Source: Actinomycetes bacterium
Lineage (GTDB): Bacteria; Actinomycetota; Coriobacteriia; Coriobacteriales; Atopobiaceae
Direction: 5' to 3'
DNA: 64,000 nt
Assembly (NCBI GenBank): GCA_029546925.1
Contig: JAKPQM010000023.1
Location: 62,001 to 126,000, forward strand
Shown here: piece after piece, positions 1-25,324 of the stretch
How positions within the stretch are numbered: the first letter of the stretch is position 1
How the letters are laid out: every line of letters starts with the position of its first letter
Position numbers and translations under genes: made by a program
The notes under the pieces: model-generated
What the model was told of the DNA's origin: nothing
Seen by the model: only the letters and a program-made list of their open reading frames with translations
Database searches by the model: none

Positions 1-546
1 GCAGTTCGAGAAGGCGTTGAACCAGTAGTTGCAGTTTGTGATGCCGAGGCCGGCGATGGTCGAATCGATGTAGACCTTCTTCACCAACAGCTTGATGGAG
101 TCGTAGGAACGTGCCGAAGCCGACGAGTAGCCCGCCGGGTCGATCTCGAAGACCTGCACGATGCGCCCGCCGGTGACCGACGTGCGCCGCTCGTAGTAGT
201 TGATCTCCAGGGTGCCGTCGTCGAGCAGGAGCGCACGGATCTTGTAGCCCACGTCCCATTCGAGCGCCAGGATGGCGGCGGCCATGTCGCCCGGCGCGTA
301 GAGCGTGCTCTCGCCGTTCTGCCCGCGAATGGCGGAGGCGATGTCCGAGAACACCGACTCCGGCAGCACGCCGGATTCTAGCTGCATGTACGGCTGCTCC
401 TGGTAGTCGCCGGCGTCCGTGCCGTCGAGGGCAGAGACAGCGGCGGCCATCTCTCGCGGCTTGTACAGCGTGGCAACGCCCGCCTGGTAGCGGATCGCGT
501 TTGCGATGTCGGTGAGGATGCTCGTGGAAACGGTGCCTACGGCCAT
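1..546 (-). CDS. Phage tail-associated protein with internal repeats, 3' end outside window
   Basis: Open from an ATG at 546 to the left edge (182 codons, no stop). The ATG overlaps the stop of the preceding collagen-like gene in an ATGA junction, so it belongs to the same late operon. Residues about 10-40 and 64-94 are two copies of one motif, roughly ILTDIANAIR...LYKPREMAAAV and VFSDIASAIR...LYAPGDMAAAI. From memory such DIA-AIR...P-MAAAI units are common in tail-fibre and surface proteins of Firmicutes and Actinobacteria phages. The remainder looks like a beta-rich domain. Position after Tal and the collagen fibre suggests a tail-tip or receptor-binding part. No exact family can be named and the C-terminus is missing. 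Confidence 0.7.
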   Translation of the reverse strand, partial: MAVGTVSTSILTDIANAIRYQAGVATLYKPREMAAAVSALDGTDAGDYQEQPYMQLESGVLPESVFSDIASAIRGQNGESTLYAPGDMAAAILALEWDVGYKIRALLLDDGTLEINYYERRTSVTGGRIVQVFEIDPAGYSSASARSYDSIKLLVKKVYIDSTIAGLGITNCNYWFNAFSNC

Positions 547-1979
547 CAGAACTCCTCCTCTTCGAGGTTGGCGATCGCGGCGATGGCGTCGTCAACGTAC
601 AGCTTGGTCGCGTATGCAGACAGGTCAGGCGTCGTCCCCGCCGGTCCCTGCGGCCCGGTCGGTCCCGTCGCGCCTGTCTCGCCCTTGAGGTTGTGGAACG
701 CGAAGGCGAACGTCCTAGCGGAAGCCGTGCCGCCCAAAGTGACGTTGACGGAAGCCGTGCCGGTGGAAGAATCCACGGTCGCGCTCGCACCCATGATGGT
801 CGCATCCGCACCGTCGTCGCCTGTGTCGCCCTTGGGGCCCTGCGGTCCCGTGGCACCGGTCGCGCCGGTCTCGCCCTGCGGTCCCGTCTCGCCCTGTGGG
901 CCGGTAGCACCTTGGATTCCCTGTATGCCCTGCGGCCCGCGCAAATCAGCCGAGCTCGTACCCGACGCGCTCGTGACGGTCAGCACCGAGCCGTTCCATG
1001 AGTGCGTGCAGGAGACGCCGTCAGCACCGGAGGGGCCAGTCGCGCCCTGCGGCCCCGTGTCACCGGTGTCGCCCTTCGGCCCTTGGGCTCCAGTCGCGCC
1101 AGTGTCGCCTTTGTCGCCCTTGGGACCTTGAGGACCAGCAGCGCCCGTGGCACCCGTCTCTCCTTGGACGCCCTGCGGTCCTTGCGGCCCAGTTTCGCCC
1201 ACATCGCCCTTCGGTCCTTGCGGGCCAGATTCGCCCTGGATTCCCTGAGGACCCTGCTCGCCAGTGTCGCCCTTGGGACCCTGCGGCCCGACGTCACCCG
1301 TATCGCCCTTGTCACCCTTGACGCCCTTGGTCACGTCGGCCGTGGTCGTGCCATTCTTGTCCGTAATCGTGATGGTCGCTCCATCGGCGGTCTGAGTCAC
1401 AGTGGCCGTCGGGCTGAACCCGTCAACACCGTCGGCCCCGTCGAAGTCTCCACGCTCGGCCGCCGCCGTCAGGTTCTCCCGCGCCGTGTCGGCCAGCGCG
1501 GCCGCAGCGTTCGCAGCGTCGGCGGCATCCGTCGTTATCTCGGTCGCATGCTCGTAGGCGTTGATGGCGTCCACGAACAGTGTGAACCCGTCCTCGTGCT
1601 CCTCACCGCCGACGACCACGGGCTCCACCCGTATCGTGAACACGCGGGAAGAGATGTACGTATCGTCACCACGCGAGACCATGACCTGCGCCTGCACGGC
1701 ACCCTCGGCTTCCTGCATCGCCGCCGGGTAGTAGACCTCGAACGCCCCGACAGACGCATCGACGGCAGTGAAGGGCTCGGTCCCACGCTCGTCAGTCACC
1801 TTGTGCCGCCACAAGAAGTAGACGGCAGCCCCCGTCAGGTCGGCTGCAGAGCCGTCCTCCCTCACGGCAAGCGAGATTCCGCGCCCGCCAGCGTCGGCGG
1901 GGGAAGCCACCAGCACGTCGCCGAAACGCTCGTCGCAGGCGTCCCAAACAAGCTTATGAAGTCCGTATCCGTCGAGCAC
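546..1979 (-). CDS. Collagen-like tail fibre protein with BppU-type N-terminus
   Basis: 477 residues, GTG start at 1979 preceded by AGGAGGT about 8 bases upstream. Residues about 1-130 resemble the N-terminal domain of siphophage baseplate upper proteins (BppU-like; a VYYPAAM motif followed by an ISSRVFTIRVEP stretch). A short coiled or alpha-rich linker follows. Residues about 200-460 hold several runs of Gly-X-Y collagen repeats (GPQGPKGDTG type) interrupted by two non-collagen segments. A C-terminal tail ends in EEEEF. The likely role is a trimeric fibre joining the baseplate to a receptor-binding protein. It is the penultimate gene of a translationally coupled tail-tip block and overlaps the next gene by four bases. 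The collagen repeats could vary in number by slippage between relatives. Confidence 0.85.
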   Translation of the reverse strand: MLDGYGLHKLVWDACDERFGDVLVASPADAGGRGISLAVREDGSAADLTGAAVYFLWRHKVTDERGTEPFTAVDASVGAFEVYYPAAMQEAEGAVQAQVMVSRGDDTYISSRVFTIRVEPVVVGGEEHEDGFTLFVDAINAYEHATEITTDAADAANAAAALADTARENLTAAAERGDFDGADGVDGFSPTATVTQTADGATITITDKNGTTTADVTKGVKGDKGDTGDVGPQGPKGDTGEQGPQGIQGESGPQGPKGDVGETGPQGPQGVQGETGATGAAGPQGPKGDKGDTGATGAQGPKGDTGDTGPQGATGPSGADGVSCTHSWNGSVLTVTSASGTSSADLRGPQGIQGIQGATGPQGETGPQGETGATGATGPQGPKGDTGDDGADATIMGASATVDSSTGTASVNVTLGGTASARTFAFAFHNLKGETGATGPTGPQGPAGTTPDLSAYATKLYVDDAIAAIANLEEEEF

Positions 1980-2032: not shown

Positions 2033-3253
2033 TCAGAAGTCGAGGTCCGCCAGCTCGTCCAGGTCATCGATTGCGGTGGTCACCGTGCTCTCGACCACCT
2101 GCACCGAGGTCGCCACGCTCAGGTTGCCGTCGATGCCCGCCACGTCGTCCTGCAGGGCGGCAACGTCGGCTGCAAGAGAGCTCGTCACCGCGTAGTCCAC
2201 CTGCTGCACCGTGCCGATGGTCACACGGCAGACGACGGCATCGCCGAACGTGCGCACGCGCTTCACGACCCGCGCCTTGAGCCGCCATTCGGGCGTCCTG
2301 CTCGAATCGACGACTGCAACCTCGTCGCCCAGCCCGCACTCGCCGCCGTCCAAGGCCGCGACGTCGATCTCGTAGCTCACCTTCGGCTGCACCGCATCCA
2401 CGAGCGCCTTCCTGGTGAGCGCGAGCAGTCTGGCAGGGTCGTCGCACTCCGAGAAGGTCACCTGCCCGAAGCTGTGCACCTTCGCCGTCCTGTCGGCGTT
2501 CCAGCGCCCCCAGACCAACCGTGCATTCTCGTCGCCGACCCAGTTGACGCCGCCGTTGACCTCGCCGAAGGTGAGCTTCTTGCGGTAGCCGCCCGTGTAG
2601 CGCCCGTCCTCGTCGGTCACGGGAAGGCCAGCGCCGAACCCGTAGAGCGCCGTGTAGACGTCCTGCTCCAGAACCGTCCTGGTGCAGCCCGCCATGTTCT
2701 TGCCGTAGGTGAAGCGAAGGCCCTTCCAACTCCCAAGCTGGCTCTTGAAACGGATGGCCCTTGAAGCCACCCGCCCGCCGGCGACCGTTATCACCGGCTC
2801 GACCTCGCCGTCCCAGACCTCGGCTACCCTCCGCAGCGCCCAGAGCGCGTTCACGTGGTAGAGCACGCAGCCAGCAGTGCCGGCCACGTCGCACGACGCG
2901 ATTGTCCAGCGTGTGGGTGCGAGCACGACCGCCAGAGCCTGCCGCGCCGTCTTCGAGACGAGGTGCTGCTCCTCGATGAAATCGTCCAGCAGTTCGCAAA
3001 GCGACGACTCCGCATACACCGAGCACAGGCCATCGAGCGGCTCATCTGTCCTCACAACGACGTGCTCGCGCCACACGCCGCCGTCCTGCCATAGCAGCCG
3101 GTCGCCCTTGGCGGGCACCTCGCGGCACTCGAACTCCAGCGTGTCCTCGCCGTTGAGCTCCTCGGTGTGGACCAGCTCGCCGACGACGGGGAGTATCCCG
3201 ATGCGCTCGTCGAAGCGGTCGAACCAGAAGATCGTGGGGACGGAGCCCGCCAT
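2033..3253 (-). CDS. Tail-tip (Tal/endopeptidase-like) protein
   Basis: 406 residues from the ATG at 3253, which overlaps the Dit stop codon (ATGA) and has a GAGAGGTGG ribosome site. An ATG 14 codons further upstream lies inside the Dit gene and is less likely. The protein directly follows Dit, as the tail-associated protein does in siphophages. It shows the usual arrangement of that family's N-terminal part: an opening FDRFDERIG strand, a beta-rich ring domain, and a region (about residues 290-370) with GDEVAVVDSSRTPEWRLKARV, typical of prophage endopeptidase tail proteins. It is short, with no clear peptidase or lysozyme domain after the ring domain, and ends in a short helical tail. Its place in the operon supports the call more than any single motif. 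Confidence 0.75.
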   Translation of the reverse strand: MAGSVPTIFWFDRFDERIGILPVVGELVHTEELNGEDTLEFECREVPAKGDRLLWQDGGVWREHVVVRTDEPLDGLCSVYAESSLCELLDDFIEEQHLVSKTARQALAVVLAPTRWTIASCDVAGTAGCVLYHVNALWALRRVAEVWDGEVEPVITVAGGRVASRAIRFKSQLGSWKGLRFTYGKNMAGCTRTVLEQDVYTALYGFGAGLPVTDEDGRYTGGYRKKLTFGEVNGGVNWVGDENARLVWGRWNADRTAKVHSFGQVTFSECDDPARLLALTRKALVDAVQPKVSYEIDVAALDGGECGLGDEVAVVDSSRTPEWRLKARVVKRVRTFGDAVVCRVTIGTVQQVDYAVTSSLAADVAALQDDVAGIDGNLSVATSVQVVESTVTTAIDDLDELADLDF

Positions 3254-3966
3254 CACAGCCACCTCTCGCGGAAGCTGGTCGTATGGGAGGAACATCCCGT
3301 GAAGCTCAGCTCGCAGCTGCCGGGAGAGAGCGAGAAGAAGTCGCTCGCCAGCGTAACGTCCGCACGGGCGTCAGCGCCGTCTATCGTCACGCCCTCGTTC
3401 GCGTAGTCGATGTGCACCACCTCGCCGCCGGAGAAGGCATGCTCCGCGCGCACGAACGCGTCACCGCAGCCGACCTGCACGGCAGAACCGGCAGAAGCGA
3501 CCAGCTCGAATGCCGGCCATGTGGGCCACGACCCGCCGACCTCGAAGGCCGCTCCGGTCTCGGTCCGTTCCCTACCGTAGGCCACGGGGTCGAGCAGCGT
3601 GAAGACGACCTCGCCCTCGCCGTCCTCGAAAAGCGACGACCACGACCCCGCATCGGTGCACACGGCGTCGCGGTACTCAAGCTCCGGCTCGTCGGGCAGC
3701 CGCAGCGTCCCGCCAGCCGTGGAGCACAGCGCCGAGTAGACCCTGTGCCGAATGTCGGCCAGCCCGTTGGTCCCCGGCCTGAACCCCGCGTCCATGAACA
3801 GCCGCACCCGCACCAGTCTTGGCGGTATGCGACCAGAAACGAGCAGCGCGCCCGCACGCCCGGGCATCACCATCGTGTCGGGCACGACGGGCATAGCGAC
3901 CTTCTCGACGACCTCGGCGCTGCACCATTCAGAGAGGTCAATGCCGTTGTAGACAATCGACCTCAT
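3253..3966 (-). CDS. Distal tail protein (Dit-like)
   Basis: 237 residues, ATG at 3966. Such proteins form the hexameric hub at the tip of long non-contractile tails. The opening (a YNGIDLSEW motif), the segment around residues 30-60 with the VMPGRAG and LVRVRLFMD motifs, and a middle FTLLDPVAYG match the usual Dit/siphovirus tail-component pattern. The C-terminal half looks like the galectin-like domain. It overlaps the small upstream gene and the downstream Tal-like gene by four bases each, so translation is coupled. Oddly, it is not preceded by a tape measure gene. Confidence 0.8.
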   Translation of the reverse strand: MRSIVYNGIDLSEWCSAEVVEKVAMPVVPDTMVMPGRAGALLVSGRIPPRLVRVRLFMDAGFRPGTNGLADIRHRVYSALCSTAGGTLRLPDEPELEYRDAVCTDAGSWSSLFEDGEGEVVFTLLDPVAYGRERTETGAAFEVGGSWPTWPAFELVASAGSAVQVGCGDAFVRAEHAFSGGEVVHIDYANEGVTIDGADARADVTLASDFFSLSPGSCELSFTGCSSHTTSFRERWL

Positions 3967-4130
3967 GCGTTGCCCCTGGCTCTTCCGTAGGCGATGGCAC
4001 GACGGCGAGACTCCAGGCTCATCTCGTCCACGGAGCCTTCTTTCCTGGGCTTCTGAGCCATCGATCCTGCGAGAAGCCTCAGCTCGTCGCCACGGCCATC
4101 CTCGCGTTTGTCCGCATCCTTCTTTTTCAC
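3963..4130 (-). CDS. Small charged protein between neck genes and Dit
   Basis: 55 residues if started at the GTG at 4130, which overlaps the previous stop (GTGA). An ATG at 4151 would give 62 residues. The N-terminal third is very rich in Lys, Asp and Glu (KKKDADKRED). The rest is helical with a basic end. It sits exactly where the major tail protein, tail assembly chaperones and tape measure protein are normally encoded, so it may be a residual chaperone fragment or the remains of a deletion joint. No family is recognised. Four-base overlaps on both sides show that it is an integrated operon member and not spacer. Confidence 0.5.
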   Translation of the reverse strand: MKKKDADKREDGRGDELRLLAGSMAQKPRKEGSVDEMSLESRRRAIAYGRARGNA

Positions 4131-4516
4131 AGCGACCTCACCACCGCGCACGTCACGTCGAACGCCCAGAGATACCGCCCGCTTGAGTCGCGCTCCTTGA
4201 ACGCTGGTTCCGTCGTGTCGATGCCTAGGATGCGGTAAGCGCCGGCGTCCGCATAAGGCTCCCAGTCGGCACGGCGAACCGCGTACTCAGCTGCCGTTGC
4301 AACGTTCTCCGCATACGCCAGAACCTCGCGAACGACCAGCACTGTGACGGTCACCGTCCCGCGCTCCTCCTCGGCCATCCGGGAATCGCGCTCGAACGCC
4401 CCCTCCGTCACCACGATGGGCTCAGCGCAGTCAAGCGCCGATGGCAGAACTTTTGTGAAGCAACTTGTGAAGTGGGCATCTACCAGCAGTTTCGCAATCG
4501 AGTCCGCGCAGCTCAT
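4127..4516 (-). CDS. Neck protein, tail-terminator-like position
   Basis: 129 residues from the ATG at 4516, which overlaps the stop of the previous gene (ATGA). A start 16 codons upstream would run deep into that gene. The chain has an N-terminal helix (IAKLLVDAHF), central strands (TVTVTVLVVRE) and a C-terminal strand pair ending WAFDVTCAVVRSL. Size and place (third small gene after the capsid) fit a tail-terminator or tail-completion protein. The family assignment is by position only. Confidence 0.55.
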   Translation of the reverse strand: MSCADSIAKLLVDAHFTSCFTKVLPSALDCAEPIVVTEGAFERDSRMAEEERGTVTVTVLVVREVLAYAENVATAAEYAVRRADWEPYADAGAYRILGIDTTEPAFKERDSSGRYLWAFDVTCAVVRSL

Positions 4517-4842
4517 CTCACCATCAGCTCCCAGTGGTGCACGTGCCCGTTGAAGTCCTCGCACCGCTTGCGCTCGGCCACGTAGTACGAATGCCCGCCG
4601 ATGTCGATGCGAGACCCCGCTGGCACCTCGAAGGCACCATCGCTGTTAAGCGCGTCGACGTAGACCTTGCCGCTGCCAGCATCGGCGCTCCTGTGCCCAT
4701 CGTCCACGACCGACTGCGTCCGCGCGAACCGCACGTGAGACACGGCCACGCCCTCGGCATAGCCGCCAGCACCATCCGGCACCCTCACCACGGCGTCCTC
4801 GGCCAACAAACGCAGCGGTATCGGCCGAAGGCCCCGCATCAT
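4513..4842 (-). CDS. Head-closure/stopper-like neck protein
   Basis: 109 residues, ATG at 4842 overlapping the previous gene by four bases (ATGATG context). It is a beta-rich small protein with RIDIGGHSYYVAERKRC near the middle-to-end. From memory this recalls minor capsid or head-closure proteins of the SPP1 gp16 kind, where a small barrel plugs the connector. It lies second after the capsid gene, the normal place for this role. Function is inferred from place, size and fold impression. Confidence 0.55.
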   Translation of the reverse strand: MMRGLRPIPLRLLAEDAVVRVPDGAGGYAEGVAVSHVRFARTQSVVDDGHRSADAGSGKVYVDALNSDGAFEVPAGSRIDIGGHSYYVAERKRCEDFNGHVHHWELMVR

Positions 4843-5180
4843 CGCACCCCGCAGAACGCGAGCGACGTACCGACGAGCTCCTTGAGCGCCGCGCCCGTGG
4901 CGATCTCCTCGCCGGTCGTGCCCTCGTCCTCGTAGTGGGTCACCTTGAAGTCCCCGAGCGAGAAGCCGCCGACCTGCCCCTCGCCGAACTCAGCGAAGGC
5001 GTCGACGGCCGCGCACACGGCCCGTTGGTAGGCTTCCAGCTCGTCATCGCCAGGCTCCGCGCCGCCCGCCAGCCACCGTATATGCCGCGTCGCTGCAGGC
5101 AGCGCAAGCCCGAAGGCGGACTCCGAAAGCCCGCCCCCATAGGTCTGCGAATACCACTCGTATGTCACCGCTGCGGCCAC
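4839..5180 (-). CDS. Head-tail connector (adaptor) protein
   Basis: 113 residues, ATG at 5180, five bases after the capsid stop. It opens with VTYEWYSQTYGG and has helices around residues 45-70 (DDELEAYQRAVCAAVDAF), the helical pattern of phage head-tail adaptors of the gp6/gp15 group. In such phages this protein forms a ring under the portal. It begins the run of four-base overlaps that continues down to the tail fibre genes. Confidence 0.6.
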   Translation of the reverse strand: MAAAVTYEWYSQTYGGGLSESAFGLALPAATRHIRWLAGGAEPGDDELEAYQRAVCAAVDAFAEFGEGQVGGFSLGDFKVTHYEDEGTTGEEIATGAALKELVGTSLAFCGVR

Positions 5181-5184
5181 GGAG

Positions 5185-6198
5185 CTACTCCGTGCTCGCG
5201 CTCACGTACACGCCGTCGAGCTTGTTCTCCAGCACGCTCACGATGCCGTACTTGCGGTACTTGAGCATGTAGGAGTCCAGCGCCTCCAGCTGGTCGGGGC
5301 TGAACACGCGCGACGCCACGTGCTTGTCATACTTAATCACGGCCGACTTCTCCACCACCATGAAGTTGATGTCGCGACCCGCGCCCACGAGCTCGTAGTA
5401 GTTCGCGAGCCCGCTCTTGGTGGGGGACGCCACGGCCGTGTACACACCGCCGCTCTCGGTGTAGTAGGTCTTCGAGGAGTCGACCTCGGTGTCGGCCGTC
5501 TTCTCGTAGCTGCCCGCCGCCTTCTGGTAGCCGAACTGGTCGTCATCGCCGCTGAGCAAGTCGATGGCCGTGTAGAAGCGCACCTGCGGCACCTCCACAA
5601 TGCGGCTGAACCGCTCGAGCACGCGGTTCGAGCGCGTGGGGTTCGCCAGCGAGAAGTCGTCCAGGACGCCGCGCAGCGTCGGCGTGATGAAGAGGTAGCG
5701 CGAGCCCGTCGACACCTGGCGCTCGTCCATCGCGTTGGTAACGGCACGCAGCGCCGCGAGCACGTCAACGGCGGACGCCTCGGAGAGGTCCTCGCCCTTC
5801 ACGGTCACGCCGTCGGCGGACGCGATCTGGCTGAACGTGTAGGCGTCGCCCTCGGGAGCCACCTGCGTGCGCTGCAGCTCCGCGCCCGCCTCGACGAAGC
5901 AGTCCAGGACGCCGCTCTCCTCCACGTCCATGACGTCCGCGAACAGGCGGATGGCCCGGTCGTAGCCGAAGCTGTGCGTCTCGTACTCGTAGGTGATGCT
6001 TCCGGTCTTGTAGCCCACGTTGCGGGTGTAGTCCCCGAGCCCCGTCACGGAGATCTTGGGGATGAGGATCTCCTTCGCGTTGCGACCGGCACGCACCATG
6101 CGCCCGCCGCTGTTCAGGCAGCGGGACACCGCCGCCCTCTGGTAGACCTCGTCGAGGATCCCGGTGTAGTTCTTCGCGAACTCGATGCTGTTGGCCAT
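5185..6198 (-). CDS. Major capsid protein
   Basis: 337 residues, ATG at 6198, directly after the scaffold gene. The sequence has the pattern of an HK97-fold capsid: an N-terminal arm, a LIPKISVTGLGDYTR strand, the long spine region with SITYEYETHSFGYDRA, and a C-terminal P-domain/A-domain part ending in KHVASRVFSPDQLEALD. About 45 residues around 225-270 (YEKTADTEVDSSKTYYTE...) look like an inserted Ser/Thr/Tyr-rich beta domain, as in decorated capsids. A decayed homologue lies at 50007-50401 on the same strand, about 60% identical by eye over the N-terminal part. The partnership with an upstream scaffold gene makes the call firm. Confidence 0.88.
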   Translation of the reverse strand: MANSIEFAKNYTGILDEVYQRAAVSRCLNSGGRMVRAGRNAKEILIPKISVTGLGDYTRNVGYKTGSITYEYETHSFGYDRAIRLFADVMDVEESGVLDCFVEAGAELQRTQVAPEGDAYTFSQIASADGVTVKGEDLSEASAVDVLAALRAVTNAMDERQVSTGSRYLFITPTLRGVLDDFSLANPTRSNRVLERFSRIVEVPQVRFYTAIDLLSGDDDQFGYQKAAGSYEKTADTEVDSSKTYYTESGGVYTAVASPTKSGLANYYELVGAGRDINFMVVEKSAVIKYDKHVASRVFSPDQLEALDSYMLKYRKYGIVSVLENKLDGVYVSASTE

Positions 6199-6210: not shown

Positions 6211-6705
6211 CTATGCTTCGTCGTTGGAATCGTCCAGGCCGGCGAGCCTGCGCCAGCGCCTCATGGTCTTGCCGGCATCCGTGCTGGTGCCTGCGTTGGG
6301 AAGCCCAGTCCTGCCGCCAGGCTGCTTGGCGGGGGCGTCGGAAAACAGCCACGGCTCTGCCTCCTTGAGCGCGTCGACGTCGCCGCCGTGGTCGGCCAAC
6401 ACAGCACGGGCGGCCTTCACGTTTCGCACGCCCTCGAGCTGAAGCCTGAAGTCGATCCGGTCAGACTCGCCCTGGGCCTTGAGCTCCGCAATCTCGCCGC
6501 GCAGCTGCTCTGCCGTCTCGGCGTTCTTGGCGGCCTCGGCAACCTGAGCCTCGAGCGCAGCGATCTTCTCGTCGCGCTCGGCGACGGCCTTCTCCCAGTC
6601 GGTGCCGTTCACCTGCGGCTGCCCTTGCGCCGCCTGCTGCTGCCCGAGGTTTTCCTGGGCTTGCGGCTCTTCCTGCGTCTTGTCGCCATGGTTATCACTG
6701 GCCAT
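6211..6705 (-). CDS. Capsid scaffolding protein (GP20-like)
   Basis: 164 residues from the ATG at 6705, chosen because AAAGGTGG lies 7 bases upstream. An ATG ten codons earlier lacks such a site. It is Gln/Glu-rich at the N-terminus and has a long coiled coil (about residues 45-100: EKAVAERDEKIAALEAQVAEA). A C-terminal section, ESDRIDFRLQLEGVRNVKAARAVL, is typical of scaffold proteins that bind the capsid. It ends 12 bases before the capsid gene. The broken scaffold at 50405-50653 keeps the same ESDRIDFKLQL motif, so both prophages share this gene pair. Confidence 0.85.
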   Translation of the reverse strand: MASDNHGDKTQEEPQAQENLGQQQAAQGQPQVNGTDWEKAVAERDEKIAALEAQVAEAAKNAETAEQLRGEIAELKAQGESDRIDFRLQLEGVRNVKAARAVLADHGGDVDALKEAEPWLFSDAPAKQPGGRTGLPNAGTSTDAGKTMRRWRRLAGLDDSNDEA

Positions 6706-6802
6706 GTCAGCCACCTTTCGTATCGTGGCCGACAAAACAGTTCGGCCTCTTAACCTGCAACAAGGCTAAGAGGCCGTCACAAAGTGCCTATGTCCTACTG
6801 GC

Positions 6803-7594
6803 TTACATGAAGAACTTCGAAATGAGCTCGCCGATAACGGGAAACAGTGTGGTGCCGAGTGTGGTCGTGCTCTTTACGATGGAAGCAGTGTTCTCCAGGA
6901 CATCCGCGAACTTCTCTATGTTGCCTTCTTTCGCTGCTTCGCCCATATCGATAACAGCGGCTTCGGCACTCTGCTTCACATCGTCATCAGCGTCACTCGC
7001 ACGGATCGCCTCGACCGCCATTTCGACGCTTATGGGCTCAGTCTTAGCGGTCGCGTTGGCCACACTGCCGACATTGGTGTTGTTGAAGGTCGGGCTGTTG
7101 CTTATGTTTATGCTCATCTTGCTCTCCTCGTCCATGAAGTCGCCCCTTATGTAGGAGAGGCCCTTCTCTGTTGTCGCAACGGCCCAAGGCACGTTATCAG
7201 CCCACTGGATATTGAGTAGCCCAGTTCGCGCCAGTTCCTGGTAGTCGGAAACGCGTCCGTCCACGATTTCAATGCTGGTGTCTTGACCCTTGCGACGATG
7301 AAATGCCGCTTCCGCATATGTCATACATACGAGCTCATCGGCTGTTTCGCTAAGGGACACGAAGCTCCTCCGGAACCGGTATGCGCGTTGATAGTGCTCC
7401 ACACCGGCGGGCAGAATAGACAGGACGATAAACATCTGGTGCCCCCAGTCGGTCTCGCCCTTGAGCATTTCTGCATCGCGCAGATCAAGGAGGGCTTTCA
7501 CGTACATTTCGTCCTCGGTGGTGTATGGCAAGTCATCTCGGTTGACCATAAGATAGGCAAGTGCGGCTTCGGCTGCGTCGGTAATCTCAAGCAA
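6803..7594 (-). CDS. Unknown protein, phage cargo or moron candidate
   Basis: 263 residues, ATG at 7594 preceded by GGAGGTAG. I do not recognise the family. The first 150 residues look like a folded helical/mixed domain (LEITDAAEAALAYLM..., KALLDLRDAEML). Around residue 160 there is an Asn/Ser-rich stretch, INISNSPTFNNTNVGSVANA. From memory this kind of linker occurs in several phage-defence and phage-exclusion proteins next to their effector or oligomerisation part. The C-terminus is helical with a hydrophobic end (TLGTTLFPVIGELISKFFM). It lies on the late strand between scaffold and the inverted IetAS genes. Membrane attachment by the last helix is possible but unproven. Confidence 0.6.
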   Translation of the reverse strand: MLEITDAAEAALAYLMVNRDDLPYTTEDEMYVKALLDLRDAEMLKGETDWGHQMFIVLSILPAGVEHYQRAYRFRRSFVSLSETADELVCMTYAEAAFHRRKGQDTSIEIVDGRVSDYQELARTGLLNIQWADNVPWAVATTEKGLSYIRGDFMDEESKMSINISNSPTFNNTNVGSVANATAKTEPISVEMAVEAIRASDADDDVKQSAEAAVIDMGEAAKEGNIEKFADVLENTASIVKSTTTLGTTLFPVIGELISKFFM

Positions 7595-7765
7595 GGTTTA
7601 CTACCTCCTATACTTTCTGCGCAGCAGGCGGGCTTGTGACAGCCCGGCAGAATTGCCAATGGGGGCTGGCTGCGCTAAAGTTTGCAGTTACACGAAGCGG
7701 AGGCGAGCCGCAAAACTACACCTCCGCTCCGCTCATGAGTGGGGTCTCAATCGCGAGTTGGGACC

Positions 7766-7873
7766 CTACTTCTTCTTGATGTGGACGTGGCGGGTGGTCG
7801 TGCCGGTCTTAACGATCCGACCAGTCCGCGTGACCTTGTAGCGCGGGATGCGCACGGTAACTGTGGTCTTCAT
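7766..7873 (-). CDS. Small basic protein, 35 residues
   Basis: ATG at 7873 to TAG at 7766, with a purine-rich AAAGGGGGAAA ribosome site just upstream. The product is strongly basic and beta-like (VTVRIPRYKVTRTGRIVK then HVHIKKK). Very short basic proteins of this form occur among phage head genes, but I cannot name a family. It lies in the spacer between the 263-residue gene and the start of IetA and is read in the late direction. A further small frame ending at its ATG (about 25 codons, GTG or ATT start) could be a leader and is too weak to list. Confidence 0.5.
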   Translation of the reverse strand: MKTTVTVRIPRYKVTRTGRIVKTGTTTRHVHIKKK

Positions 7874-8059
7874 CGCCGTTTCCCCCTTTCCGCAATCGAA
7901 GGCTCTCCGGCTTCGCCCACCCCGGCTCTTGCCGGACTATCTTGCACCCTAATCGCGTCACCTCCTAGCGGGTACTCTCGAGCGTTTGACCGCTCGTGGG
8001 CATACTACACCACTTCACGTTATTTCGCAAACCTCGTCCCGATTTCTTGTTTCTTGTCC

Positions 8060-8065
8060 TATAAT
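8060..8065 (+). promoter_or_regulatory. Probable -10 box for the IetAS-like operon
   Basis: A perfect TATAAT at 8060-8065 lies 31 bases before the AUG at 8097, which has an AAAGGAGG ribosome site. No good -35 box is present at 16-18 bases spacing, so an activator or an extended upstream region may be needed. Confidence 0.5.
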
Positions 8066-8096
8066 GTCTCTTAGAGTAAAGGAGGATGGGACACCC

Positions 8097-9146
8097 ATGA
8101 AAAAGCGCAGCGTCATCAACCTGATTCGCTACCACGCCGAGAACAACAACGCGGCGTTCCGCAACGAGGCGTACGATATCGCCCGCGACTTCGACGCTGC
8201 TGGTGACTACCAGCTGGCCGAGTACATAATGGCACTCATGTCGGACGCAAACGCATTCGTCCCTCAGTCGAACGACGGCAGCTCCGAGTTCTTCCGCAAG
8301 CTCGACCTTCCAACCAACCCGCTGCCTCTCCCAGAGAGCATATCCAACGACGTGACCGGCATCATCAACGCAATCGGACACAACGCCGGCGTGAACAAGT
8401 TCCTGTTCCAGGGCCCTCCTGGCACAGGCAAGACGGAGACGGCAAAGCAAATCGGCCGCATCGTGGGACGCGACGTCTACGCCGTTGACTTCAATACCGT
8501 AATCGACAGTAAGCTCGGCCAGACAGCAAAGAACATTCGCAGCCTCTTCATGGACATCAACTCGCTCGTCCATCCCGAGGGGGCAATCGTCCTCTTCGAC
8601 GAGATTGACGCACTCGCGCTCGACCGCATCAACCAGCACGACGTGAGGGAGATGGGCCGCGCTACCTCCGCGCTTCTTAAAGAGCTCGATTCCATGGGCG
8701 ACCAGGTGGTGCTCATTGCGACAACCAATCTCTACAGTTCTCTCGACAAGGCTTTGACCCGGCGTTTCGACACGAGCATCGATTTCGGGCGCTACTCGAA
8801 AGACGACCTGCTCGAGATCGCTGACGTGCTTATGGGTAACCTGCTCACGCGCTTCAAGTACGCGGGGAGAGACATGCGCCTGTTCCGCAAGGTCATGGCC
8901 TTGATGCCAGAGCTGCCCTATCCAGGGGACTTGCAGAACATGCTCAGGTCTGCCGTCGCGTTCAGTAACCCCGGTGACGAGTTCGACTACATGAGACGTC
9001 TGTACTCTATGGCGTGCCCGGAGGAATCTCTTACAGACTTGGCGGGCCTGCGGGAGCAGGGGTTCACCATCCGCGAGATTTCCACGCTTGCCAACGTACC
9101 GCGTAGCACGGTCTCCCGCGAGCTGAGGGGAGCCGACGATGAATGA
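8097..9146 (+). CDS. AAA+ ATPase, IetA-like, of an ATPase/subtilase defence pair
   Basis: 349 residues from the ATG at 8097, chosen for its AAAGGAGG site. Longer in-frame starts upstream have none. The AAA+ core spans about 80-250: Walker A GPPGTGKT at 106-113, Walker B IVLFDEID at 164-171, sensor-1 ATTN near 208-211 and arginine finger RR at 222-223. The C-terminal 35 residues (FTIREISTLANVPRSTVSREL) look like a helix-turn-helix, an unusual addition. The gene overlaps the downstream subtilase gene by eight bases. ATPase plus serine protease pairs are known as IetAS, described first as a plasmid-stability toxin-antitoxin pair of an Agrobacterium Ti plasmid and later as an anti-phage system, with IetA as the antitoxin/regulator. 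Assignment rests on the pair and the domains. Confidence 0.75.
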   Translation: MKKRSVINLIRYHAENNNAAFRNEAYDIARDFDAAGDYQLAEYIMALMSDANAFVPQSNDGSSEFFRKLDLPTNPLPLPESISNDVTGIINAIGHNAGVNKFLFQGPPGTGKTETAKQIGRIVGRDVYAVDFNTVIDSKLGQTAKNIRSLFMDINSLVHPEGAIVLFDEIDALALDRINQHDVREMGRATSALLKELDSMGDQVVLIATTNLYSSLDKALTRRFDTSIDFGRYSKDDLLEIADVLMGNLLTRFKYAGRDMRLFRKVMALMPELPYPGDLQNMLRSAVAFSNPGDEFDYMRRLYSMACPEESLTDLAGLREQGFTIREISTLANVPRSTVSRELRGADDE

Positions 9147-11361
9147 CCTGCTGCAACTCAAAGGGCAGTTCCAACACAACCGAGCGCCACAGCCGGGACC
9201 CGTCGAACTTCCAAGCGACGGCAAAGTTACCTCTGACAAGCTGCGGTCGCTTGCTAACGACCTGTATGTGATGAAGAGCTACTGGTCAGCGCGAAGCGTG
9301 CCGTTCAACCCGCTCATCAGTGTCTACTACAAAACGGTCGTAGCAAAAAGCAACCGAATTCGCAGGCTTCTCAGCGGAACCAAATCAGCCGCATCATCCG
9401 TGGTAGGCGCGAAGTTCGAGGGAGAGGAGCGCAGCCCCAGGCACATCATCACGCACTGCGTCGACATGGAGACTATCGATCGCACCATTGAACTGCTGGA
9501 ACGCTGCGCAGAGATCCTCGATAGCGACTACGACGGGTCGATGGATCGCGACAAGCTCAAGGACTTCAACAAGAAAGGCCTGCGCCGCTCCATCAAGGGC
9601 CTCACCAAGACCGCGTTTGCGCAGTGCATGCGCGATGCTTGCTACGTAAATCGATTTGGCGTGGAGGACAAGCCAGAGGCCATTGACGACGTTGCGGTGG
9701 TAACGCTTTACGACACGGGCTATGCGGACGATGTCATCGGCTTCATGCACGATCTCGGGTTCACCGTCACCTCGGATCGTGTTCTTGGTAACGCCGTGCG
9801 TCTGGACAAGGATGAATACACACGGCTTGTTGACCAGTATCCTTACCTCGTTTCCATGGCTGTCAAGGACTGGAGCGAGGTCGAACCAGAGGTGTTCCAG
9901 GTCGACAACCAAGGCGTGGCGACCATACCAGAGCCGACCAACGAGCCGGTCATTGGCGTCATAGACACCGCGTTCGACGAACGGGTATATTTCTCCGAAT
10001 GGGTCGATGTTGCCAAGTCTAAGCATGTCCTGCCGGAAGAGGTTATTGAGCCGCAGGACAGGATGCACGGCACTGCAGTAACCTCGCTCATCGTCGACGG
10101 CCCGCACATCAATCCCATGCTCGACGACGGTTGCGGAAGGTTCCGAGTACGGCATTTCTGCGTCGCCAAAGCCGGTCGCTTCAGCTCGTTCGCAGTCATG
10201 CGCAGCATTCGCGGCATCGTCAAGGAGAACAGGGACATCAAGGTGTGGAACCTCTCCCTTGGCTCACCAGCCGGCGTCTCTCGCAATTTTGTGTCGCCGG
10301 AAGCCGCGATTCTTGACGAGCTCCAAACCGAGTTCGATGACATCGTCTTCGTAGTCGCGGGTACCAACAAAGAGAACGCAAACAGCCCCGAGAAGATCGG
10401 GGCGCCGGCCGACTCAATCAACTCGCTCGTCGTGAACGCCACTGGCTTTGACGGCACTATCGCAAGCTACTCGCGCAGAGGCCCCATCCTCGAGTTCTTC
10501 AAGAAGCCCGATGTCTGCTGTGTGGGCGGAGAAATCGGAAAAGGAATGCACGTCTGCACCCCCACAGGTGAGTCGTGGCGTCCCGGCACCTCGTATGCAG
10601 CCCCCTGGATATCTCGGAAGATGGCTTACCTCATGCAAGTCATGAACCTGCCGCGTGAGGTCGCAAAGGCGCTCATCATCGACTCCGCCGCTGGATGGGA
10701 TTTCGAGGACGACCCCTATATGGGCTACGGGCGCGTCCCTCAACGCATATCCGACATCTTGGGCTCGTCGAACGACGAAATCAGGTTCATCCTAACCGGC
10801 TCATCAGAAGACTACGAGACCTATCACTACGGCATCCCTGTTCCAATCAACAAGGGCGGGCATCCCTACATAGCTCGCGCTACCATGTGTTACTTCCCGA
10901 AATGCGACCGTCGCCAGGGTGTCGACTACACTTCCACGGAAATGGATCTCCATTTCGGGCGCATCAACGACAAGGGCCGTATTCAGGCGCTAAACAAGAA
11001 TCCACAAGGTGAGCCCGGCGAGTACACCTACGAGGGGGAAGCCCGCAAGTTCTACCGCAAGTGGGACAATGTCAAGCACATCGGCGAGGTCCTGAAAGAC
11101 GGCGTCCGCACTCGGAAAGCGTACAGTACGGGTATGTGGGGCATCAAGATACGCACGACCGAGCGCAGCGATACGGAGAAGGCCGGACGAGGAATGAATT
11201 TCGGCGTCGTGGTGACGCTCAAGGAAATCAACGGTGTCAATCGAATCGATGACTTCATCCAGCAATGCTCGCTTCGCGGTTGGATCGTCACGCGCATCGA
11301 CATTGAGAGCCGTATCGACATCTATAACGCCGCCGAGGTGGACATTGAATTCGACGATTAG
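9139..11361 (+). CDS. Subtilisin-like serine protease, IetS-like
   Basis: 740 residues, ATG at 9139 inside the end of the ATPase gene. The S8 peptidase domain spans about 270-520, with the catalytic triad visible: Asp276 in GVIDTAF, His310 in MHGTAV, Ser485 in GTSYAAP, and the oxyanion Asn410 in VVAGTN. There is no signal peptide, so it acts in the cytoplasm. The 270-residue N-terminal region is helical and unlike a subtilisin propeptide. The C-terminal 220 residues are beta-rich and may be the target-sensing part. In the IetAS family this protein is the toxic effector held in check by the ATPase, and loss of the ATPase or phage infection would release proteolysis. That mechanism is knowledge of the family; here it is inferred. 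Confidence 0.8.
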   Translation: MNDLLQLKGQFQHNRAPQPGPVELPSDGKVTSDKLRSLANDLYVMKSYWSARSVPFNPLISVYYKTVVAKSNRIRRLLSGTKSAASSVVGAKFEGEERSPRHIITHCVDMETIDRTIELLERCAEILDSDYDGSMDRDKLKDFNKKGLRRSIKGLTKTAFAQCMRDACYVNRFGVEDKPEAIDDVAVVTLYDTGYADDVIGFMHDLGFTVTSDRVLGNAVRLDKDEYTRLVDQYPYLVSMAVKDWSEVEPEVFQVDNQGVATIPEPTNEPVIGVIDTAFDERVYFSEWVDVAKSKHVLPEEVIEPQDRMHGTAVTSLIVDGPHINPMLDDGCGRFRVRHFCVAKAGRFSSFAVMRSIRGIVKENRDIKVWNLSLGSPAGVSRNFVSPEAAILDELQTEFDDIVFVVAGTNKENANSPEKIGAPADSINSLVVNATGFDGTIASYSRRGPILEFFKKPDVCCVGGEIGKGMHVCTPTGESWRPGTSYAAPWISRKMAYLMQVMNLPREVAKALIIDSAAGWDFEDDPYMGYGRVPQRISDILGSSNDEIRFILTGSSEDYETYHYGIPVPINKGGHPYIARATMCYFPKCDRRQGVDYTSTEMDLHFGRINDKGRIQALNKNPQGEPGEYTYEGEARKFYRKWDNVKHIGEVLKDGVRTRKAYSTGMWGIKIRTTERSDTEKAGRGMNFGVVVTLKEINGVNRIDDFIQQCSLRGWIVTRIDIESRIDIYNAAEVDIEFDD

Positions 11362-11376
11362 TAAGAAGGGCGGGTT

Positions 11377-12558
11377 TTGTTGGTGATACCTTTCTCGGAG
11401 ACCGAGATTAATCGCTCGGATATAGATCAGTCGCTGCTTGATATCGACCAGCGCAGCAGGACTAGCTTATTCGCCTGGAATGGACAGTTCTCGCCACAGT
11501 TTATAGAAGCTCTGCTCGAGAAGTATGCAGACTCTTCCTCCGTGGTCTACGATCCGTTCGCTGGTTCGGGAACAGTACTAACGGAAAGTGCTCGCAAGGG
11601 ATTGTCCGCATATGGTGTCGAGCTTAATCCCGCAGCTTATTACATGGCGAAGTGCAACGAGCTCTGTGTGCTGTCACCCGAAGAGCGACAAACAGTCATC
11701 GATGAGGTTGGCACCAGTCTGACCTCAGCACTTAGCTACGATAACCAGGAGAAGGCTCTGTCAGAGTGGTACTCAAGCTTTGAGCCGAGTAAGCAAAAAG
11801 ACCTCGCAGCTCTACTCATCGTTCTCTGTGACCTATACAAGAACGAAGCAACTCCAATGCTCGTCTCTACGAAATGGGCTTCTCTGAGCGAGCTGGTCTG
11901 CACGCTGCCGCATACTGGCGGTGTCATCCGTGCAATCAACTCTGATTCGAGAAACGCCCCGTTAGAAGATAACCTGGCAAGCCTGGTTATAACCTCACCG
12001 CCATACATCAACGTAATGAACTATCACCAGCAATATCGTCGTTCGGTTGAAGTCCTTGGCTATAAGGTACTCGCTATTGCTAAAAGTGAACTGGGTTCTA
12101 ACAGGCGAAATAGGGGCAATCGATTCCTTACAGTAATCGAATACGCCATTGATATGGCCCTCTCGCTTATCGAAAGCAGCCGAATCGCCAAGCCAGGGTC
12201 ACGAATGATATACGTTGTCGGAAAAGAATCAACGGTGCTCGGTTCTACGTTCTCAAACAGCGAGATCGTCTATAGGGCTGCCTGTGAGATTGCTGGCCTC
12301 AGATATCTCATGCGTCAGCAGAGGGTTTTCAAAAACCGCTACGGTAAAATGATTTACGAGGATGTACTGCACTTCGAAAACGTTGACAGGTTCGAACTCA
12401 TCAGCGAGGAGAAGGCGATTGCCGACGCACGTCTTATCGCGCGTGATGCCATCATCGCGGCGAGGGACCTGCGCATCGAGAGCGAAGGCGATACGTCGGA
12501 AAAGGTCCTATTACTTAATCAGGCATTGGGAAAGCTTGAACAGGTCGGGAAGGCGTAG
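11377..12558 (+). CDS. DNA methyltransferase (amino-methyltransferase) of a restriction-modification pair
   Basis: 393 residues. The start is TTG at 11377 (TTG at 11380 or GTG at 11383 are alternatives), after AGAAGGG. Motif I DPFAGSGTV at about 59-67 binds S-adenosylmethionine. Motif IV TSPPY near 207 is the catalytic loop of N4-cytosine/N6-adenine methyltransferases, with motif I before motif IV. The gene lies 15 bases after the subtilase and 9 bases before the next gene. Base composition changes sharply at its start: it is clearly AT-richer than the prophage around it, with rarer codons, a sign of separate acquisition. It should protect host DNA against the partner product. The target base and site cannot be read from the sequence. 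Confidence 0.8.
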   Translation: MLVIPFSETEINRSDIDQSLLDIDQRSRTSLFAWNGQFSPQFIEALLEKYADSSSVVYDPFAGSGTVLTESARKGLSAYGVELNPAAYYMAKCNELCVLSPEERQTVIDEVGTSLTSALSYDNQEKALSEWYSSFEPSKQKDLAALLIVLCDLYKNEATPMLVSTKWASLSELVCTLPHTGGVIRAINSDSRNAPLEDNLASLVITSPPYINVMNYHQQYRRSVEVLGYKVLAIAKSELGSNRRNRGNRFLTVIEYAIDMALSLIESSRIAKPGSRMIYVVGKESTVLGSTFSNSEIVYRAACEIAGLRYLMRQQRVFKNRYGKMIYEDVLHFENVDRFELISEEKAIADARLIARDAIIAARDLRIESEGDTSEKVLLLNQALGKLEQVGKA

Positions 12559-12567
12559 GAGGAAAAG

Positions 12568-13491
12568 GTGGCACGCGGAGTACACGGCGAGAAGATAGTC
12601 GCTCTACTGACTAATGCGAAACTGCCAAAAAGTGATGTTGCGAGAGTAAATGCAGCTATAGCAAGATACGATGCTTGGATACACGAGCTGCAGACTGCCG
12701 ATGCGCCGACGCTGAGCAAGCTGGTCAGTGTGCTCGTCCACAACCTTACAATGTATAAGCTATACATTGACCTCGACTTCATCTTTGATAGTGAAGAGGA
12801 CTTCCTGTACAGACAAAAAGGCCAGCTCAAACTAGACAATACCGTGATGGAGGAATTCCTTCCCATTTTCGTCCGACGGTGCATCGAGAAGGAAACGGGA
12901 TCATGTGACCTGGTCATTAGTTCGCAGGCACAAGTCTTCTCCTCTGCATACTTCGAAAGCAGCTTAGCGGTGCCCGCCATTGGGGGCGGTCTTCAAATCA
13001 AAACGAAGGCACAGGACTTCTCGATTTCAAGGCCACTCCATCTGCTGGCTTCGTATTCCAGCGGTTTTGAAGACGACCAGACCCTGATGCGGACGACTTC
13101 GCTTGGCTATACGATGGCCGAACTAAAGACCAATCTCGATAAGACCATGTTTCAGGAGGCCGCTGCCACTGCACATGATGTGAAGATAGCCATACCAAGC
13201 TCGAAGTACTACCTGCTTTGTGACTTCCTCGATATGAAACCCATCAGCACGAGTACGACAGACATCGAGGCTATTTTTATCCTCCGAAAGGCTAAGCGCA
13301 TCTCGTCGAACGTTCGAAAGTCATATGCGACATACAGTGGTCGTGTTGCTGGTAGAGCCGCCTATAAAGACTACCTTTGGTCGCACCCGTATTCAGTCGA
13401 GCTTTTCGAGGATTTCATAGGTCGTATTTTGCAACAGCTCGCATTCGATGACCTTTCCGAAGAAGACGTGCTCAATCGCGGGTTGTTCTAA
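12568..13491 (+). CDS. Putative type II restriction endonuclease
   Basis: 307 residues, GTG at 12568 after TAGGAGGA, immediately behind the methyltransferase and with the same lower GC content. The middle contains DFIFDSEEDFLYRQKGQLKLDN and a following EEFLPIF. From memory this recalls the Bpu10I-type restriction endonuclease family, but I cannot confirm that, and no PD-(D/E)XK signature is certain. A basic stretch near residue 250-265 could bind DNA. Its pairing with a lone methyltransferase is the main reason for the call. It could instead be an unrelated accessory protein. Confidence 0.55.
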   Translation: MARGVHGEKIVALLTNAKLPKSDVARVNAAIARYDAWIHELQTADAPTLSKLVSVLVHNLTMYKLYIDLDFIFDSEEDFLYRQKGQLKLDNTVMEEFLPIFVRRCIEKETGSCDLVISSQAQVFSSAYFESSLAVPAIGGGLQIKTKAQDFSISRPLHLLASYSSGFEDDQTLMRTTSLGYTMAELKTNLDKTMFQEAAATAHDVKIAIPSSKYYLLCDFLDMKPISTSTTDIEAIFILRKAKRISSNVRKSYATYSGRVAGRAAYKDYLWSHPYSVELFEDFIGRILQQLAFDDLSEEDVLNRGLF

Positions 13492-14243
13492 AGGGACGAC
13501 AAGTTCTGTTTGAAGTCGCGCCAATTGTCGTGACTCTTGCATAGCAGATTTATTTTGCCGCCATCCCTGGCTGCTGGCCTGGCCGTGCGCTACCAACCTC
13601 GGGTTGTCCGCAGCCCGGCCGCCCACGCTCCGGGTGTGCGCTCGGGCCGTTCGTGCCACACGCAGCCCACGCGCCCATGGGAGTCTTCCGTACGGCCAGC
13701 CGTCGGCTTCGGTCGGTCTTCGCATACGCGCCTACAGCAGCCCGCTTCGCGGTCTGCTTCCGGCCGCGTGCTCAGCCCGCCCTACGCCGCCGTCCGGCCT
13801 AATGTAAGGTCAACGGGGGCGCGTGGTCAGCGTGCGTCACGCCCGGCCAGCGGCGCACACCCTACGCGCGGTCGTCCGGTCTGCTGCCGTCACGTGCTCG
13901 TCCGCGCCCGTCCAGTCCATCAGCCAGCGCGGGCGGCAAAGGCTCACTGCGGCGGCAACCCGGCAGCCACCGCACGCCGCCGGCAACCGTCTCCCAGTCG
14001 CTCCACCAGCAGCCGACACCCAGCAGCGCCCGCCAGAAGCCGTCCCGGGCCGCGACAACCCCTCTTGCAACCCGAACCGGCCAGCTCAACCAGTGAGCGC
14101 CTGCGGGCTCCTGACAGCCCACCTGATGCCGCTTGCCACCCCGGACGCCACCACACCTGAAGGCCGCTTCCCCCCGACGGAAGACGCCGCCCCAGCCGTT
14201 ACAATTGCACCTGCAAGCGTCCACCGAAAGCGAGGCGAGCCCC
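13492..14243. other. Long C-rich non-coding stretch with no supported gene
   Basis: About 750 bases lie between the restriction genes and the next plus-strand gene. The plus strand is strongly C-rich and the minus strand G-rich. Open frames exist on both strands, but their translations are low-complexity (Pro, Arg, Ser, Ala on plus; Gly, Trp, Arg, Cys on minus), lack good ribosome sites and look unlike proteins. The stretch contains many short GC-rich inverted repeats. It could be a structured RNA (if read on the minus strand), a decayed gene, or a replication or packaging region. I cannot decide. Confidence 0.4.
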
Positions 14244-14807
14244 ATGGCCATGCCCACCACCATAGACGGCCGAGCGGCCATACAGTCATCCCTCGTGCGG
14301 GCATGGGGACTCGAAGGCTACGCCCGCATACAGCGCACCGTGCGCGAGATTGACGTCAGCTCCGACGCCGACTTCCAGCGGTTCTACAACCGCTTCTACC
14401 GCGTGCGCAGGAATGCGGAGTGGCAGTCGAGCTACTACGCAATCATGGAGAGGGAGAAGGCCAGCCCCTCCATGGCGTTCGGGGACGTGCTGCGCGAGAT
14501 GCACGAGCTCACGGGCAATGTGGAGGCGTCCTTCACCAGCAAGATGATCGCCACGCTCCACCCCGACAGGCCGATATGGGACAGCCTGGTGCTCGCAAGG
14601 CTCGGCCTGAGGCTCAGTGGGACGACGGCGCAGGCCAAGCTCGAGAACGCCGTCGAGGTGTACGGACAGATCGCCTCCTGGTACGAGACCTACCTGGCTA
14701 CGGAGGATGCCGAGAAGAACATACGGCTCTTCGACGAGCTCCTTCCCGACTACGCTTGGCTCACCCCCGTGAAGAAGGTCGACTTCCTCCTTTGGAGCGA
14801 ACGCTAG
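14244..14807 (+). CDS. Unknown 187-residue protein, prophage cargo
   Basis: ATG at 14244 behind a GAGGCGAG site. In-frame starts further upstream would add only low-complexity sequence. The protein is soluble and mostly helical (RIQRTVREIDVSSDADFQRFYNRFY; EMHELTGNVEASFTSKMIATLHP), with no motif I recognise. Its stop codon overlaps the stop of the convergent portal gene within CTAG at 14804-14807. It stands on the opposite strand to the head genes, like the other cargo, so it probably has its own promoter in the C-rich region upstream. A role in phage defence or lysogenic conversion is only suggested by position. Confidence 0.6.
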   Translation: MAMPTTIDGRAAIQSSLVRAWGLEGYARIQRTVREIDVSSDADFQRFYNRFYRVRRNAEWQSSYYAIMEREKASPSMAFGDVLREMHELTGNVEASFTSKMIATLHPDRPIWDSLVLARLGLRLSGTTAQAKLENAVEVYGQIASWYETYLATEDAEKNIRLFDELLPDYAWLTPVKKVDFLLWSER

Positions 14808-16291: not shown

Positions 16292-16405
16292 GAGAAGACC
16301 TCCATCAGCCGCCGTAATCATCGTGATGAAGTGTCACCCATCGTCACAACCTCGCCCATGCCTTAAAATGCCGAGAAGAACGAATGCTTTAGAACAGGAC
16401 AAACC

Positions 16406-18213: not shown

Positions 18214-18598
18214 CGGAAGACCTCGCAACCTTGAGCTCCACGCCGAGCGTGATTTGCGGGACGTCCTCGCCCTCAGACTCGACCCTACGAGCCGTCTGCG
18301 CGTACTCGTCGGGGTACTTGCGCTCGAGCAGCCAGGCGGCAGCCGTCCACTGCGGGTTCTTCTCGCGGGTGGCCGTCGCCATGATGGACTGCAGCAGCGT
18401 CTCCTTGTACTCGGCCTCGGCCTTTTTGATGCCCTCAACTAACGCAACTTTCACCTTGCTGTCGGGGTCCTTGAGCCACTTGTACCAGGCGGTCTCGGAG
18501 ACGCCCAGCCCACGGCATATGTCGGCGTTGCTCATGCCATGCGACTTCATTTCTATGGCCTGCTCGACCATCTTGTACGTGAGCTTCGGCTTCCTCAT
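18200..18598 (-). CDS. Terminase small subunit (TerS)
   Basis: 132 residues from the ATG at 18598, picked because AAGGAGG lies 9 bases before it. Three ATG codons just upstream (18628 region) have none. The N-terminal helix-turn-helix (about 20-50: SNADICRGLGVSETAWYKWL) should recognise the pac or cos site. A coiled-coil oligomer part follows (ALVEGIKKAEAEYKETLLQSIM), then a C-terminal tail (PQITLGVELKV) that contacts TerL. It starts the packaging and head operon on the minus strand. Confidence 0.85.
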   Translation of the reverse strand: MRKPKLTYKMVEQAIEMKSHGMSNADICRGLGVSETAWYKWLKDPDSKVKVALVEGIKKAEAEYKETLLQSIMATATREKNPQWTAAAWLLERKYPDEYAQTARRVESEGEDVPQITLGVELKVARSSDGDD

Positions 18599-19092: not shown

Positions 19093-19095
19093 GTT

Positions 19096-25247: not shown

Positions 25248-25324
<77 letters not shown>

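Follow-up and report, generated by a model that had tools for sequence, protein, structure and literature searches.

Prophages of Coriobacteriia without tail-tube genes: a probable stub-tailed lineage built from siphophage parts

In siphophages of the SPP1/TP901-1 type, genes for a tail-completion protein, a tube protein, two chaperones and a tape measure lie between the stopper and the distal tail protein Dit. What kind of virus, then, is a prophage that encodes a head, a neck and a tail tip but lacks this block? The question is raised by prophage 1, which occupies the minus strand at the left end of the window (the 64,000-nucleotide stretch of DNA analysed here, bases 62001-126000 of contig C25 in a 2.4-Mb draft genome) and runs past the window edge; its remainder was read from the contig. 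Judged by the organisms that carry its closest relatives, the genome falls within or close to Atopobiaceae, in the Coriobacteriia. The initial annotation offered two readings: either a clean deletion had left the phage tail-defective, or a satellite-like phage makes its own head and tip and borrows a tube.

Extent and gene content of the prophage

A tyrosine integrase gene (23756..25234, plus strand; Pfam Phage_integrase, E 2e-22) adjoins a tRNA-Met (cat; 25248..25324, minus strand; ARAGORN) that forms the attachment site at one end of the element, and an imperfect copy (~45 bp) of the 3' half of this tRNA lies near -4.6 kb, outside the window, at the other. Together with the direct repeats AGTCACGGCA flanking both ends, these features delimit an element of ~29.9 kb. 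Prophage 1 is complete. Besides the integrase it encodes, all on the minus strand, an excisionase-like HTH_17 protein (22053..22316; Pfam HTH_17, E 1e-14), a primase-helicase (19382..22060; Pfam NrS1-1_pol-like_HBD and DUF927; PHROG 1829, E 6e-88), the small terminase subunit TerS (18200..18598; PHROG 4102, E 1e-23), the large subunit TerL (16930..18213; Pfam Terminase_3, E 2e-39) and a portal that is kept in relatives (14804..16321; PHROG 533, E 2.5e-74). The head and neck genes continue with a scaffold, assigned by position, PHROG 31118 and a Pfam Phage_scaffold match below the cut-off (6211..6735; E 1e-3), the major capsid protein (MCP; 5185..6198; PHROG 422, E 2e-68), a head-tail adaptor (connector 1; 4839..5180; PHROG 541, E 4e-12), a head-closure or stopper-type connector (connector 2; 4513..4842; Pfam Minor_capsid_1, E 2e-6; PHROG 793) and a tail terminator of 129 aa (4127..4516; AlphaFold, Foldseek and hhalign). 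After a small ORF come the tip genes: Dit with both of its domains (3253..3966; Pfam SPP1_Dit, E 6e-22), a short tail-tip protein Tal (2033..3250, 406 aa, or 2033..3295, 420 aa; PF06605, E 6e-22), in which Prophage_tail was the sole family and no separate hydrolase domain was recognised by Pfam, and a baseplate-upper-like protein with BppU_N and collagen repeats (546..1979; PF10651, E 1e-7; PF01391, E 6e-26). The last is a fibre/adhesin of 463 aa (PHROG 29123; BspA-like repeats by eye), whose N-terminal part lies at 1..546 and which continues to -845; its gene is conserved in all relatives having that region. Genes were called with a simple codon-usage caller, and starts and some small ORFs are approximate.

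Left of position 1 we read the end of the fibre gene (to -845), cargo, a small conserved gene and then the att site near -4.6 kb. The initial annotation had pointed to this side as a place to look for missing tail genes and would have given up its view had a tape measure turned up elsewhere in the prophage; neither a tube nor a tape measure was found left of position 1, and none was found in the interval between portal and scaffold. As separate observations, a ~103-aa gene (PHROG 36731; L003:12592-12915, corresponding to about -4408 to -4085 in window coordinates) is the last before the att site in many members and is oriented opposite to the structural genes, and in L063 (17397-17705) a 102-aa ORF begins like a member of the orf107 family and ends as an integrase C-terminus, perhaps a product of nested insertion or recombination at the att end.

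The portal-scaffold interval holds cargo (6803..14807; PADLOC and Pfam): an IetA/IetS-like pair of ATPase and subtilase (PADLOC IetA, E 2e-40; IetS, E 1e-63), a DNA methyltransferase (PADLOC) with a Bpu10I-type endonuclease (Pfam RE_Bpu10I, E 1e-76), and unknown genes. Restriction and other defence genes were recognised in it, and no tail genes. In the members seen (L006, L012 and L115, for example), cargo likewise occupies this interval, and many of 47 large cargo proteins have matches in defence families, among them restriction-modification and BREX/DISARM-type helicase families. The window also contains, at 50025-62370, a second copy of this prophage family in a decayed state, with scaffold and MCP fragments at 50025-50563 and portal and TerL fragments at 61086-62370; between its portal and scaffold remnants it keeps a PglX-like methyltransferase, a type IIG-like restriction enzyme, a methyltransferase and a PDC-S06-like gene.

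The neck-to-Dit junction in relatives and cousins

Successive genes at the junction overlap by four bases, connector 2 and terminator at 4513-4516, terminator and small ORF at 4127-4130, and small ORF and Dit at 3963-3966. These coordinates bear out the initial description of a single 55-residue gene (55 or 62 residues by our calls) between neck and Dit, joined by neat overlaps rather than by a ragged deletion joint, and the gene content agrees with its picture of an element that encodes head, neck and tip itself but no tube block. Fold predictions bear on the two proteins that normally bound the tube. The AlphaFold model of the terminator (pLDDT 94.7) matched lambda gpU, T5 p142 and the SaPI1 neck terminator in Foldseek, and that of Dit (pLDDT 90) matched SPP1 gp19.1 (E 1.7e-15, TM 0.73), so that both proteins are present and ordinary; the predicted folds agree with solved terminator and Dit structures of SPP1/TP901-1-type siphophages.

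Relatives were collected by scanning viral contigs, genomes of the family and named genomes, followed by gene calling and profile labelling. This search, which the initial annotation had proposed, yielded 64 distinct relatives with the same junction, counted as different Dit proteins accompanied by a same-strand terminator (identical Dit proteins are excluded from this count and from that of 34 given below, near-identical elements remain, and loci from different scans overlap). The terminator-Dit gap in these is 70-331 nt (median 164), and the order adaptor-stopper-terminator-small ORF-Dit-Tal-BppU-fibre is common to the relatives. A junction shared so regularly among 64 distinct relatives is neither a chance deletion nor one peculiar to this strain. 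Nor did we find the situation that would have overturned the initial view, in which relatives keep the tube block and this strain alone has lost it: the relatives are tube-less too, and the tubed phages are distant cousins.

These cousins are Eggerthella phage PMBT5 and prophages in three genomes (G107, G084 and G008), with homologous MCPs (~29-39% identical) and, in G107, a homologous Dit (34%). Their block comprises a tail-completion-like protein, a terminator, a tube, two chaperones and a tape measure of 770-815 aa (770-900 aa for siphophages of this type), followed by Dit in G107 and PMBT5; the order portal, scaffold, MCP, adaptor, stopper, terminator, Dit, Tal is shared between siphophages of this type and prophage 1. 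In hhalign, the terminator matched that of the cousins from end to end (E 1.4e-5) and none of their other neck or tail genes, and the Dit protein gave no match when compared with named phages.

We searched the 3,617 predicted proteins of the tube-less loci with ten tube, six tape-measure, two tail-completion-protein and two chaperone queries (cut-off E 0.01) and found no homologue of any of the four. Most of the same queries match relatives in the tubed cousin set, and not every tube query caught every tubed phage. Compared with what defines a siphovirus, the elements have the Dit/Tal hub and the tail terminator (Pfam and fold matches), gave no major tail (tube) protein gene with the ten tube queries in those 3,617 proteins, and carry upstream of Dit only an ORF of ~49-71 aa, or none, in the place of a full-length tape-measure gene. 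The absence of tube and tape-measure genes is as expected of a podovirus, apart from the mini tape measure proposed below. In 11 layouts compared, the integrase, regulators, primase, a ~135-aa gene upstream of TerS, TerS, TerL, portal, scaffold, MCP, neck, Dit, Tal and fibres are conserved, and no long ORF fit for a tape measure is conserved across them.

The tube-less family spans Atopobiaceae, Coriobacteriaceae, Eggerthellaceae and Kribbibacterium, its hosts including Olsenella, Collinsella, Thermophilibacter, Slackia sp. ZJ119, Gordonibacter sp. An230, Eggerthella sinensis DSM 16107 and Kribbibacterium absianum. An MCP tree unites the 31 tube-less rows in a single clade (100/99) and leaves the five tubed rows outside it, on long branches. 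Given this single clade and the lack of tube-block homologues in the tube-less loci, loss of the tube looks ancestral and single. In pairwise comparison with close relatives, the window's Tal gene has a dN/dS of ~0.1, its Dit and terminator genes have ~0.2 and its small ORF has ~0.3; judged from these sequence comparisons, Dit, Tal and the terminator are under purifying selection. Prophage 1 belongs to a widespread, still-selected virus family of gut and rumen Coriobacteriia, and the earlier suggestion of a clean deletion that made the phage tail-defective is not supported by dozens of conserved elements with low dN/dS in one MCP-tree clade. Text searches of the literature found no earlier description of the tube-less family. 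A survey of Eggerthella lenta prophages recorded a tape measure in only six of ten prophage clades and assigned siphovirus-like morphology nonetheless (PMC8778435). In a spacer search by DNA match in 140 genomes, homologous prophages dominate among the matches listed; a 36-bp match in the genome's own contig C80 was rejected as a CRISPR spacer, since the surrounding sequence is coding and repetitive and shows no array of repeats and spacers.

The small ORF and the proposed stub tail

The ORF between terminator and Dit (3963..4130, 55 aa with a GTG start, or 3963..4151, 62 aa; minus strand) matches no Pfam or PHROG family. In most members it has ~49-71 residues, start codons being uncertain; nearly all members share the ending RRA.AYGRARG.(A/L), and in most the ORF overlaps Dit by four bases. 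No small ORF is present in L237, the most divergent member, whose Dit begins at the terminator stop; this 35-kb viral contig also carries the integrase directly after the lysis genes (18539-20656), the arrangement that a circular or concatemeric element would show. In the cousins, the position of the small ORF is taken by the C-terminus of the tape measure. When a small-ORF profile (narrow, with an effective number of about 4-6) was scored ungapped from the C-terminus, the tails of 21 Coriobacteriia siphophage tape measures outscored 1,465 control tails (p 4e-7) as well as shuffled versions of themselves (p 8e-4). No control scored as high as the G107 tape-measure tail, and in a separate scan of that protein the C-terminus gave the best-scoring window. 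The small ORF of L126, a divergent tube-less locus, ends DVDQVDEEIARRSNRELRARGSA, close to DVDKIARRIAEMVKTRRRAMGTA in the G107 tape measure. Several tape measures do not score against the profile, the reverse profile test is weak, with only three sequences behind it, and the likeness is short and was not detected by Pfam/PHROG family search. Position at the cousins' tape-measure end and the shared C-terminal motif nevertheless suggest that the small ORF (orf62) is probably a collapsed tape measure that keeps only its C-terminal segment. A role as tail chaperone was considered and set aside, since a phmmer search of the tube-less loci with both chaperones of the cousins gave no hit.

Studies of other siphophages provide a scale for such a protein. 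In TP901-1 the length of the tail depends linearly on that of the tape measure, with an extrapolated tail length of zero at 127 residues, and its infectivity needs the C-terminal 60 residues of the tape measure (PMC5099701). The last 20 residues of the 80alpha tape measure are bound in Tal (PMC7048315), and the 80alpha tail-completion protein is found in the neck with the tape measure and DNA (PMC11661146).

We propose that an ancestor with the order adaptor, stopper, tail-completion protein, terminator, tube, chaperones, tape measure, Dit, Tal would have lost the tail-completion protein, the tube, the chaperones and nearly all of the tape measure, and would have kept the C-terminal tape-measure segment of ~50-70 residues that lies inside the Dit/Tal hub in ordinary siphophages. 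With no tube protein and a tape measure too short to reach the zero-length intercept, the neck's terminator hexamer would bind the Dit hexamer and dock on it directly, which would be the simplest assembly. The particle would be podovirus-like, with a head, a neck, a Dit-Tal hub and fibres of BppU/collagen and BspA-like type, and would be infectious without a helper. With the tube lost and the tape measure at about 50-70 residues, the family probably builds a tail of near-zero length, a morphology predicted from gene content. Podoviruses of the phi29 type have a short non-contractile tail and a small genome, and both are likewise predicted here; on general knowledge, the lineage differs from them in tail parts that are siphophage Dit, Tal and terminator, in its tyrosine integrase and in its primase-helicase replication. 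Against this reading, no ejection protein or virion lysin that would carry DNA from a stub tail across the Gram-positive wall was recognised in the element.

Our judgement is that this is likely to be a conserved temperate lineage of Coriobacteriia tailed phages whose tail has been cut to a stub, built from siphophage parts and derived once. We lean slightly towards the specific route, from siphovirus to podovirus, in which the tape measure became a plug of ~50-70 residues in the Dit/Tal hub (nothing in one branch), the tube was lost and the terminator ring came to sit on Dit.

Lysis genes, helpers and other readings

Whether such a particle would act alone depends in part on lysis. A GH25 endolysin is encoded in 21 of the 34 relatives with the right end seen, usually after two small holin-like genes; the example at L061:11250-12887 combines GH25 with an endolysin-like domain and three CW_7 repeats. 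No recognisable lysis cassette was found in the window's clade or in the An290-type clade, where other genes occupy that place. Two queries of limited sensitivity (PF10145 and the G128 tape measure) revealed tape measures, indicative of long-tailed phages, in 3 of 22 element-bearing genomes; that some of these genomes do harbour such phages counts against the stub-tail reading. Since an endolysin is present in most relatives and resident tape measures were detected in so few genomes, lysis-positive members are best regarded as autonomous stub-tailed phages, and the window's clade, which has no endolysin cassette, may depend on a helper for lysis.

Capsid-forming PICIs (cf-PICIs) are mobilised only with a helper phage and are not known to carry lysis genes; in the lineage here such genes are absent from the window's clade and an endolysin is present in 21 of 34 relatives. 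Prophage 1 resembles them in being compact, with integrase, primase, its own capsid, connector and terminase genes, and cargo. cf-PICIs make their own capsid and depend on a helper for the tail (PMC10690885), whereas the lineage here has tip genes of its own (Dit, Tal, BppU and fibre, the first two of them under selection) and mostly an endolysin. In the borrowed-tube reading of the initial annotation, a satellite with its own head and tip would recruit the tube and full-length tape measure of a helper siphophage and so make a tail of helper length with satellite adhesins. Its kept terminator and Dit, the two tube-contacting proteins, its capsid and packaging genes of the kind described for cf-PICIs (PMC10690885), its defence cargo and the missing lysis genes of the window's clade speak for such a life. 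A mini tape measure in the Dit/Tal hub would, however, oppose a borrowed full-length one, the small gene looks like a collapsed tape measure and not like an adaptor to a helper tail, and a tip that accepts foreign tubes in three bacterial families would be demanding. With endolysin in most relatives and tape measures in only 3 of 22 genomes, we regard tube borrowing as possible in principle and unlikely in fact. If a helper did supply the tube, satellites retargeting a helper's tail with their own tip would also be new.

A stub tail could also belong to a satellite whose fibres attach to, or co-enter with, a helper that supplies induction or lysis. MiniFlayer, satellite of the Streptomyces phage MindFlayer, is the nearest precedent for tube-less virions with their own adhesins: it too is actinobacterial, has its own small capsid and short tail fibres and apparently no long tail, and depends on a siphovirus helper; its podovirus look was seen by electron microscopy (PMC10690885). 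It is virulent, without integration or primase, and attaches to the helper neck, the description drawn on here mentions no Dit/Tal hub, and the Mulch/Flayer satellite genomes lack primases (PMC10690885), whereas prophage 1 integrates and has a primase-helicase. The absence of a recognisable lysis cassette from the window's and An290-type clades speaks for helper dependence; with an endolysin in most other relatives and no helper identified, we give it a small chance of being right. It is improbable that the tube is encoded by an unrecognised gene or its role filled by another protein of the element: very divergent tube proteins do escape sequence searches, and our tube queries missed some tubed phages, but among the conserved genes only the terminator and Dit have a tube-like fold or position, and no conserved long ORF could be the tape measure. 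Least of all do we expect dead or domesticated remnants that no longer make functional particles, a view that could cite decayed copies such as that at 50025-62370, many MCP fragments and broken Tal or MCP genes at some loci, and that is countered by dozens of intact elements in several families, low dN/dS of the structural genes, the intact att sites and integrase in the window, and conserved gene order within a single clade.

On the current view the tape measure dictates how long a tail becomes, and nature appears here to have gone past the 127-residue zero point of TP901-1 and to have kept the result in three or more bacterial families. If true, the lineage would show clearly how a long-tailed phage can turn short-tailed when a single module is lost; it would put the tape-measure rule to a natural zero-length test and offer a minimal Dit-Tal delivery machine for study. 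It would also warn that a real morphotype may lie behind prophage annotations of the kind 'siphovirus-like, tape measure not found'.
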